64,000 nucleotides of DNA from Burkholderiales bacterium (lineage in GTDB: Bacteria; Pseudomonadota; Gammaproteobacteria; Burkholderiales; SHXO01): NCBI GenBank assembly GCA_020854105.1, contig JADZGB010000044.1, forward strand, positions 1 through 64,000. Reading direction: 5' to 3'. Shown here piece after piece: positions 26,941 through 29,807 of the stretch. The notes beneath the pieces are model-generated. The model searched no databases, had not been told where the DNA came from, and saw nothing but the letters and a program-made list of their open reading frames with translations. Each line of letters begins with the position of its first letter. Position 1 is the stretch's first letter. A program made the translations under genes and the position numbers.

Positions 26941-28416
26941 ATGGAACGCAAGCTCCCCATCGATCAGCTCCGCGTCGGCATGTTCGTCATCGAACTCGAC
27001 AGACCCTGGCTGGATACGCCGTTCCTGCTGCAAGGGTTTCTGATCGAGGACGAGCAGACGCTCGCCCAGCTGCGGTCACTGTGCCAGTACGCGGTCGTCG
27101 ATGCCGCACGCTCCACTGTCCCGGTCGCCCTGGATCATCTTTCCGCACCGCGGGTGGAGCCGCGGCGGGTTGTCTCGCCCGCAATCGCCCGCCTCGCTGG
27201 CCAGCGGGCGGAGCCAGCCAGGGGACAGCACGCCCGCTGGCTCGAGCAGATCATGAGCGCGGCCGGGGAACTGGATGCACTGCCGCCCCCGGCAGCGGCG
27301 GTGGCTACGCCCGACAGACCCGAGTCGAGCGCCAAACCGGCAGACGGGTTGTTCACCTGGCTGCGGGGATGGTTCGGCCGTGCCGATGCCAAGCCGGATC
27401 CGGACGCGGCGGAATCCGAAGTCGATGTCATGGCAGTGCGTCCGCGCAGCGGCGCCAGCGTCCCGTTACAGCGCGAACTGCCGCACGCGCACGATGGCTA
27501 CGAGCGCGCGACCGAGATGCTCACGGGCGTCATCAAGGAAATCCGGGCCGGCAAGGGTCTGGAACTCGAAGCCGTCGAAGCCGTGGTCGAGGATCTGGTG
27601 GAGAGCGTCATCCGCAATCCGGAAGCACTGCAGTTGGTCGCGCGGCTGCGCGAGTCGGACGAAGCGGCATTCGACCACGCTCTGCAGGTCGCCGTGCTGA
27701 TGGTCAGTTTCGGCCGCGAGATCGGGTTCTCGCGCGAGCAACTGGTGCAGCTCGGACAGATCGGATTGCTGCTCGATATCGGCAAGCTGCACGTGCGACC
27801 CACCCTGCTCGGCAAGCCGGGACATCTCACCCCCGTCGAGTTCGAGGAGGTGAAGCGTCACGTGGACCTCGGGCTGGAGATGGTGAATGCGTCCGCGAAG
27901 GCGCACCGGAAGGTGCTCGAAGGCATCCACCAGCATCACGAACGTCTGGACGGCAGCGGTTATCCGCGCGGCCTCAAGGACAAGCAGATCGGCACGTTCG
28001 GCCGCATGGCCGGCATCGTCGACTGCTTCTCCGGCATGACTTCACCCCGCCCCTATGCAGCGGCAATGTCGTCCTACGAAGCGATGCGCCAGCTGCAGAC
28101 CTGGGGCGAGCGCTACTTCAATGCCGGTCTGGTACAGCAGTTCATCCAGGCCATCGGCATCTTTCCCGTCGGAACGCTCGTGGAGCTGTCCACTGGGGAA
28201 TCGGCGGTCGTGATAGAACTGCACAAGGCGCATCGCCTGAAGCCGAAGGTGCTCATCGTCGGCGATCCGGAAGGCAGACCGCTCGAGATTCCGGTCATTC
28301 TGGATCTGCTCTACAACCCAGCCGCCGAGAACGACAGCGCGCCCTACATCCGGCGCGGATTGTCCGCGGACAACGGCAACATCGATTCCACCGAGTATTA
28401 CCTGGCACGCGCCTAG
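26941..28416 (+). CDS. DUF3391/HD-GYP domain protein with altered HD motif
   Basis: A 491-residue cyclic-di-GMP-family protein: N-terminal DUF3391 (about 1-140), a Pro/Ala-rich linker, and an HD-GYP domain (about 215-400). The GYP motif is intact (HHERLDGSGYPRGL), as are the first His (FDHALQVAVL) and the later KRHVDLG. The defining HD pair, however, reads Leu278-Asp279 (LLLDIGK for LLHDIGK), so one metal ligand is missing. One base (CTC versus CAC) separates the two. It may be catalytically weak or a cyclic-di-GMP sensor. It precedes an EAL gene by 17 bp. Confidence 0.88.
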   Translation: MERKLPIDQLRVGMFVIELDRPWLDTPFLLQGFLIEDEQTLAQLRSLCQYAVVDAARSTVPVALDHLSAPRVEPRRVVSPAIARLAGQRAEPARGQHARWLEQIMSAAGELDALPPPAAAVATPDRPESSAKPADGLFTWLRGWFGRADAKPDPDAAESEVDVMAVRPRSGASVPLQRELPHAHDGYERATEMLTGVIKEIRAGKGLELEAVEAVVEDLVESVIRNPEALQLVARLRESDEAAFDHALQVAVLMVSFGREIGFSREQLVQLGQIGLLLDIGKLHVRPTLLGKPGHLTPVEFEEVKRHVDLGLEMVNASAKAHRKVLEGIHQHHERLDGSGYPRGLKDKQIGTFGRMAGIVDCFSGMTSPRPYAAAMSSYEAMRQLQTWGERYFNAGLVQQFIQAIGIFPVGTLVELSTGESAVVIELHKAHRLKPKVLIVGDPEGRPLEIPVILDLLYNPAAENDSAPYIRRGLSADNGNIDSTEYYLARA

Positions 28417-28433
28417 CACTGCCTTACGCACCG

Positions 28434-29783
28434 ATGCCTGACCTGACATCCGATCCCGTCCGCACGGCGAACGCCTGCCTGAGTCGTGCGCAGCTGCGTG
28501 AGGCAGCGCGGGCGGCTATCCTGGAGGCAGCCGGCAGCGGCCGACATTGCGCGGTACTGGTGGTGGCAGTGGAGCCCAAGGACCGCCTGCTCCTGCTCAC
28601 CGAGGACTGGATGGACAGCCGCATTGCGCACGCGCTGCACTGTCTGCCCGGGACGCTGCGCGAGGCCGACCGGTACGCCATTCTCGGGCAGCGGCATTGC
28701 TGCATTCTCCTGCCCGGATTGACGAACGTGGCGCAGGCGTTGCTGGCAGCGCACAAGATCTCGCGCGATCTCTCCGAAAGACTGTCGGAGCGTGCCAGTG
28801 AGCCGTGGGCGCGGGTCCTCATCGGGATCGCCTGCCATCCCGACCATGCGGCAGAACCCGATGGACTCATCATGCGTGCGGATGCGGCGCAGCAGCAGGC
28901 GGAATGGAGCGAGGACGACATCTTCCTGTTCCTGCCTGATGCCGCACGGGGCGGCGCTGTCGAACTGCCTGCCTCGCGCGCCGAGGTGCTGGAGGCATTG
29001 ACTTCGAATGCCTACCACCTCGTGTATCAGCCCCAGGTGGAACTGGGCAACGGCAGATGCCGGTCGGCAGAAGCCCTGCTCCGGTGCAGGCTGAGGAATG
29101 GAACGCGCATCCCGCCCGATGTGCTGGCACGGGTGGCGGAACAGGAGGGGCGCATCGCCACGCTCACCATGAACGTGCTGAACATGGCGCTGCGCCAGCT
29201 CTCGGAGTGGTCGAGCGACGGCGTGGATCTGCACGTGAGCGTGAATCTGTCGCCCTACAACCTGCGCGATCGCGATCTCGCCGGCGCGGTGGCCAGCGCG
29301 ATCGCTACCTGGGAGGTGGAGCCGGAACGCGTGACGCTCGAGCTCGTGGAGAGTTCCATGATTCACAACTTCGACCAGGCCGCAGCGCTGCTCAATCGCC
29401 TCAAGGCCATCGGCGTCAGGCTCGCCGTGGATGATTTCGGCACGGGCTATTCCTGCCTGGCGTACCTGCGACAGCTGCCGGTAGACGAACTCAAGGTGGA
29501 TCAGAGCCTGATCCGACACGTACTGCGTTCGCCGGCCGATCGGCAACTGGTGCAGGCCACGGTCGACCTGGCGCACAACTTCGGCCTGCACGCGGTCGCC
29601 GAGGGGGTAGAGACCCAGCCGATGCTCGAGGCACTGAGCGCGATGCGCTGCGACACCGTACAGGGCTATCTGATCAGCCCGCCGATCGAGGCGGACGACT
29701 ATCTGGCTTGGCTCGCGGACCACCAGGCCGACGTGTTCTTCCACCTACCGGAAACAGATAGGGCGGGTACGGCGCAAAAATGA
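28434..29783 (+). CDS. Degenerate GGDEF - EAL cyclic-di-GMP phosphodiesterase
   Basis: A 449-residue protein. Residues 20-165 look like a decayed GGDEF domain: the active loop position reads READRYAILGQRHCCILLP, with no GG[DE]EF. The EAL domain (about 190-440) keeps the catalytic set: Glu213 in SAEALLR, SVNLSP, LELVES, DDFGTGYSCLAYL, ELKVDQ, EGVET and VQGYLISPP. It should therefore hydrolyse cyclic di-GMP to pGpG. Together with the HD-GYP neighbour it forms a two-gene unit likely to lower cyclic di-GMP, perhaps to favour motility. The start is ATG 28434. Confidence 0.9.
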   Translation: MPDLTSDPVRTANACLSRAQLREAARAAILEAAGSGRHCAVLVVAVEPKDRLLLLTEDWMDSRIAHALHCLPGTLREADRYAILGQRHCCILLPGLTNVAQALLAAHKISRDLSERLSERASEPWARVLIGIACHPDHAAEPDGLIMRADAAQQQAEWSEDDIFLFLPDAARGGAVELPASRAEVLEALTSNAYHLVYQPQVELGNGRCRSAEALLRCRLRNGTRIPPDVLARVAEQEGRIATLTMNVLNMALRQLSEWSSDGVDLHVSVNLSPYNLRDRDLAGAVASAIATWEVEPERVTLELVESSMIHNFDQAAALLNRLKAIGVRLAVDDFGTGYSCLAYLRQLPVDELKVDQSLIRHVLRSPADRQLVQATVDLAHNFGLHAVAEGVETQPMLEALSAMRCDTVQGYLISPPIEADDYLAWLADHQADVFFHLPETDRAGTAQK

Positions 29784-29807
29784 AAGGCCAGCCGTCTGGC
29801 TGGCCTT
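29784..29807 (-). terminator. Intrinsic terminator, tRNA-Pro / EAL gene
   Basis: AAGGCCAGC / GCTGGCCTT, a 9-bp perfect stem with a 6-nt loop. On the minus strand it is followed by TCATTTTTG, a fair T tract for tRNA-Pro transcription. On the plus strand it begins directly after the EAL stop codon and is followed by a weaker GTTCAATT, so it probably serves both directions. Confidence 0.75.

Follow-up and report, generated by a model that had tools for sequence, protein, structure and literature searches.

In PmGH, whose numbering we use for aligned positions, H221 of the HD pair sits next to the H-site iron, cutting is proposed to be the work of the M-H pair of metals, and the H221A substitution is reported to abolish activity essentially, while c-di-GMP was trapped when just the G-site iron was left (PMC4159591). 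In Vibrio cholerae, VC1087 and VCA0895, which are without the HD pair, are reported as inactive, and VCA0681 is reported as active without the Asp at D308 (PMC4212101). DvhD of Desulfovibrio vulgaris (9rbz, 9rc0), a membrane dCache-PAS protein that controls a protease, has SQ in place of HD and MN in place of HH, and is reported to bind c-di-GMP with no metal density and no hydrolysis (PMC13090378). HnoD of Shewanella oneidensis reportedly suppresses the EAL enzyme HnoB through direct interaction, both being response regulators of a nitric oxide system (PMC6335343; PMC8846402). Altered or non-consensus sites have also been reported for PA2572 (YN-GYP) and Bd1817, both described as inactive (PMC3774798), for Bordetella PdeE (QD-GYP; PMC12805831) and for NosR (HG-GTP; PMC12570481); these four are presented as single proteins, and the accessible parts of those reports describe no operon family of DUF3391 and EAL proteins. 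DUF3391 itself is called uncharacterised in a report where its deletion from some proteins left activity unaffected (PMC12943098).

Here we describe a gene in a window of 64,000 nucleotides (the whole stretch of DNA analysed, from contig JADZGB010000044.1 of a Burkholderiales bacterium) whose product belongs to a large clade of such altered proteins. With the canonical PmGH, PA4108 and PA4781, and with sister proteins of DUF3391-HD-GYP architecture, the clade shares the fold, the HHExxDGxGYP motif and most metal ligands; DUF3391 is common to the clade and these sisters. Unlike canonical HD-GYP proteins, the clade is without the HD histidine throughout, has H189 and D308 partly eroded, and has an EAL partner in its operon. 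The window protein resembles DvhD in combining an HD-GYP fold with a broken HD pair, but DvhD is altered in both HD and HH, whereas here only the HD histidine is gone and HH stays, and the protein is led by DUF3391 and accompanied by an EAL protein. It resembles HnoD in being a degenerate HD-GYP protein with a linked EAL gene, the HnoD and HnoB genes being genome neighbours as well. However, neither HD-GYP nor EAL protein of the window has the receiver domain of a response regulator, and DUF3391 is found instead. A search by titles and abstract openings, with most subscription literature outside its scope, found no prior report of the clade or of the pair.

The window protein and its active site

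The features of the locus are collected in Table 1. The architecture is DUF3391-HD-GYP only, with no dCache-PAS and no receiver domain in the Pfam scan, in which DUF3391 scored 94.5 bits against a curated cut-off of 27.8 and the HD_5/HD profile matched at 9.2e-25. The HD pair reads LD, within GQIGLLLDIGK, and the HHExxDGxGYP motif is present as HHERLDGSGYP at residues 332–342. An earlier note on this DNA had claimed that leucine replaces the metal-binding histidine of the HD pair while the GYP half and the other histidines stay intact, and both observations hold, with H246, H307, H332, H333, GYP and D361 all in place. Further PmGH positions are matched by alignment (D183 by D240, K225 by K282, R314 by R370). 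Beyond Leu278, alignment and direct reading show three differences from PmGH: A242 for E185, S364 for D308 and A373 for K317. S364 carries no weight by itself, as VCA0681 lacks that Asp and is reportedly active. Neither is A242 special, as Glu is also absent from 93 of 94 sister proteins with the HD histidine; most of these have Tyr, which at this position has been linked to binuclear centres in the PmGH report (PMC4159591).

Table 1. Coordinates of the gene pair and its sites in the window; clade counts are among the matches listed.
Feature	Positions	Strand	Basis
DUF3391-xD-GYP gene P0001, 491 aa	26941..28416	+	ORF, Pfam
DUF3391 domain, residues 3-211 (linker ~65-171 of low confidence)	26947..27573	+	Pfam, AlphaFold2
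HD-GYP domain, residues 238-390	27652..28110	+	Pfam HD_5, fold confident
His246 (PmGH H189), retained; clade 78/115	27676..27678	+	alignment
Leu278, codon CTC (PmGH H221, the HD histidine); clade His 0/115	27772..27774	+	sequence, alignment
Asp279 (PmGH D222); clade 110/115	27775..27777	+	alignment
His307 (PmGH H250); clade 115/115	27859..27861	+	alignment
His332-His333 (PmGH H276/H277); clade 112/115, 114/115	27934..27939	+	alignment
GYP motif, residues 340-342	27958..27966	+	sequence, alignment
Asp361 (PmGH D305); clade 110/115	28021..28023	+	alignment
Ser364 (PmGH D308); Asp in 57/115 of clade	28030..28032	+	alignment
Gap between the two genes, 17 nt	28417..28433	+	sequence
Degenerate GGDEF-EAL partner gene, 449 aa	28434..29783	+	Pfam scan
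Degenerate GGDEF motif, LGQRHC	28683..28700	+	sequence
EAL domain, residues 183-417; catalytic positions intact 9/9	28980..29684	+	Pfam, alignment
Terminator-like inverted repeat and T run, scored on - strand	29784..29807	.	scan: 2 found, 1.4 expected by chance

The AlphaFold2 model, made with 19 sequences and for the protein chain only, has a mean pLDDT of 74.7, with most of the HD-GYP part at 87–97. Foldseek and VIA-align both match it to HD-GYP folds (3tmb, 9rbz, 4mcw, 4r8z). The top Foldseek match is DvhD bound to c-di-GMP (E 5.6e-9), followed by PmGH, Bd1817 and PA4781, and VIA-align gives Z 24.5 for Bd1817 (rmsd 3.3, 226 aligned) and 23.8 for DvhD (5.2, 191).

A single ancient loss of the HD histidine

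With a 15-row profile (A1) we searched a sample of 300 genomes from the window's order and another of 369 from its class, retrieved 120 regions from the matches and scored every ORF in them. Before tree building, duplicate ORFs (identical last 60 aa), loci L036–L088 except eight, sequences below 90 bits and those with more than 130 of 255 columns empty were removed, and columns 242, 246, 278 and 364 were excluded. Trees were quick ones with SH-aLRT support only. The 115 clade sequences and 95 sequences with the HD histidine (HD sequences) are the top of profile lists built with non-His proteins, so that every count of prevalence is a minimum.

In the tree of 215 sequences among the matches listed, 115 including the window protein form one clade (SH-aLRT 99). 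None of them has the HD histidine, which is present in 95 of the 95 HD sequences; the loss is old, occurred once within the clade and was never reversed in the sample. The clade covers at least 49 family codes among the matches listed and occurs in at least 55 genomes of the order sample, the window's own included, and at least 45 more of the class sample; identity to the window protein over 255 columns has a median of 41% (range 28–75). The earlier note had suggested aligning orthologues to see whether Leu is lineage-wide: the absence of His is clade-wide, but Leu is found in 44 of the 115 only, the others having Phe (22), Gln (15), Ala (12), Met (10), Ser (5), Cys (4), Ile (2) or Tyr (1, L136). 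Close relatives in the paired part of the clade are all without His. A sequencing error is ruled out by the absence of His from all 115 and by the congener L005, 65% identical to the window protein, which also carries Leu.

Pairing with an EAL gene

Where at least 900 nt of downstream sequence was available, a GGDEF-EAL gene lies directly downstream at 87 of 112 clade loci versus 2 of 92 loci of HD sequences (among the matches listed), leaving 25 clade loci without an adjacent EAL gene; of the non-His proteins outside the clade with enough sequence, 0 of 4 have an EAL neighbour. The pairing of a non-hydrolysing HD-GYP protein with an EAL protein, suggested earlier for this locus, is well supported and far more general than was supposed. 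The intergenic gap has a median of 10 nt and is at most 60 nt in 77 of 88 cases, with many 4-nt overlaps. Fisher's test gives 1e-31 for rows that are related, and with only four independent contrasts (sign test p 1) the association rests on one ancient event, for which the Fisher value is not independent evidence. More telling is how persistently the pair is kept: it is present in 44 of the 50 groups compared (48 family codes with sufficient sequence, three named metagenome loci taken as one, and the window).

In the window, the inverted repeat of Table 1 lies between the pair and convergent downstream genes, and a sigma-70 promoter scan found none. With frames overlapping the pair set aside, no other gene family neighbours it in more than 10 loci, and no HD-GYP/EAL fusion was seen. 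The third-largest ORF cluster (223 ORFs) was rejected as a conserved neighbour because 205 of its members overlap the pair by more than half.

When 108 EAL domains are placed in one tree, those of the partners group together, apart from most unpaired ones; pairing requires 4 changes on it versus 23.5 when shuffled, the starred branches are compatible with one origin, and the EAL domain adjoining the HD sequence L171 is placed among the unpaired. In four of five other genomes, each with 13 to 20 matches, the best match of the window EAL protein is the partner; the exception, G091, is of the kind in which both proteins are degenerate.

Conservation and selection

Column by column, the HD histidine is the sole position invariant in the HD sequences yet absent from the clade, and a search for a compensating ligand near the site found no H, C, D or E that has become conserved there. 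Around it, G224, E278 and G284 are kept in all 115 members, Y285 and P286 in 113 each, and R314 in 104. Partly eroded positions are K225 (95/115), H189 (78/115), D308 (57/115) and D183 (75/114). As a rule, sequences from other orders lack only the HD histidine and retain D308 and H189; the window's own order is eroded further. A C-terminal tail proposed as specific to the clade was not upheld, as about 40 of 95 HD sequences extend there too. Clade members without an EAL gene at L220, L224, L227, L232 and L266 also lose D222, D305 or H276, with D222 replaced by Glu in four of the five, so that decay is deeper where the partner is absent.

GGDEF or GGEEF is found in none of 88 partners. Of 80 full-length partners, 74 have the complete set of nine EAL positions, and five of the other six make up a single subclade whose HD position is occupied by Gln (L119, L121, L135, L137, L138). 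The description of the EAL partner as active-looking, made for the window, is borne out there by the nine catalytic residues but not in this subclade, where EAL is degenerate too, so that EAL activity is not what holds the pair together everywhere. Both genes are under purifying selection: dN/dS is 0.06–0.45 in 13 of 14 pairs (NG86, a rough estimate once dS approaches or exceeds 1), with L102/L103 saturated, and in the Gln subclade 0.06–0.11 for the HD-GYP gene and 0.06–0.14 for the EAL gene. Selection on two genes without catalysis indicates that their conserved job is binding or interaction.

Proposed function

By analogy with PmGH H221A and with the V. cholerae proteins without the HD pair, the window protein very probably does not hydrolyse c-di-GMP, and it is highly likely that the HD-GYP and EAL genes are a functional pair. 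As the pocket is otherwise kept, along with most ligands, the protein seems rather likely to bind a cyclic dinucleotide without cutting it, and c-di-GMP, proposed in the earlier note, is a plausible ligand because of the retained metal ligands, Y285, R314, the one-iron PmGH complex and DvhD. That it directly controls its EAL partner is an evenly balanced proposition. On the whole we favour an ancient non-hydrolytic HD-GYP protein that probably binds a cyclic dinucleotide and regulates the EAL partner of its operon, most likely by contact. In mechanistic terms, the loss of the HD histidine, once in the DUF3391-HD-GYP family, would have ended c-di-GMP hydrolysis; the remaining pocket would hold a cyclic dinucleotide (probably c-di-GMP) uncut, perhaps around one retained metal; and the pseudo-HD-GYP and the degenerate GGDEF-EAL protein, made from one operon, would interact, the former presumably regulating the latter. 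Such a protein would combine features of DvhD as a receptor and HnoD as an inhibitor of an EAL enzyme, and the clade may resemble a natural version of the trapped PmGH state with only the G-site iron. Several points count against this reading: HD-GYP activity is hard to predict, as VCA0681 shows; 25 of the 112 clade loci have no EAL gene alongside; the EAL association goes back to a single event; no fusion of HD-GYP and EAL came to light; and the clade has not retained K317, which contacts guanine in PmGH, although this residue is rare among the HD sequences too (14/95).

It is rather unlikely that the protein is a mere scaffold or inhibitor of its EAL partner and binds no nucleotide. HnoD does inhibit HnoB by direct contact (PMC6335343), the operon-like pairing would suit such a role, and the ligands could be retained for a structural metal, but the clade conserves Y285 and R314, both of which point towards the nucleotide in PmGH, and DvhD is reported to show that such folds do bind c-di-GMP (PMC13090378).

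A still active phosphohydrolase, in which D222, H250, H276, H277 and D305 hold one or two metals and act on pGpG or another phosphoester, appears improbable. These five ligands are near-invariant, one-metal HD proteins are reported as able to act on phosphomonoesters (PMC4159591), and pGpG would come from the EAL partner; however, besides the reported effect of H221A and the reported inactivity of VC1087 and VCA0895, K225, which PmGH needs, is lost in 20 of the 115, H189 in 37 and D308 in 58.

Finally, decay confined to the lineage, or a point mutation of recent date, in either case without function, is refuted, for although CTC and CAC do differ by one base, as the earlier note pointed out, the loss is old, clade-wide and expressed in nine replacements, the congener shares Leu at a dN/dS of 0.22 (NG86), and the pairing is retained.

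Extending the favoured reading of a non-hydrolytic regulator, we tentatively suggest an ancient, self-contained c-di-GMP module of two proteins in the broadly defined Gammaproteobacteria, in which the pseudo-HD-GYP protein might read c-di-GMP (or pGpG), held uncut on the retained metal side, and gate the EAL protein, the whole module becoming a pure receptor in the one subclade where EAL catalysis is lost. If so, a receptor–enzyme pair conserved in dozens of families has so far gone unrecognised. Profile annotation still labels such proteins as HD-GYP domain proteins, hence presumed phosphodiesterases; a non-catalytic clade would mean that c-di-GMP enzymes are miscounted across many proteobacteria and that a receptor or regulator of wide distribution has escaped notice. 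With one ligand replaced in nine ways and the others nearly invariant, the clade also amounts to a natural experiment on which HD-GYP metals are for binding and which for cutting.

Other losses and plasmid copies

Five non-His sequences outside the clade (L212, L153, L158, L043, L045) represent separate losses in the tree. In L153 and L158, Lys occupies the HD position, in tandem with an intact-HD paralogue. Paenibacillus loci L043, L045, L047, L048, L050, L061 and L062 encode an HD-GYP protein with Ile for the HD histidine (LIDIGK), about 2–4 kb from an intact-HD one on the opposite strand, an independent loss by the trees. In family code f10 (L125, L126, L128, L131), non-His copies are clustered, up to three together, some with additional ligands lost. 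A tblastn search for named close plasmid relatives gave 161 records, all below 60% identity, and the three inspected have the histidine and no adjoining EAL gene. One locus, L207 (NZ_AP025279.1), is a 5.2-kb mobilizable Aeromonas plasmid with an intact-HD HD-GYP gene.
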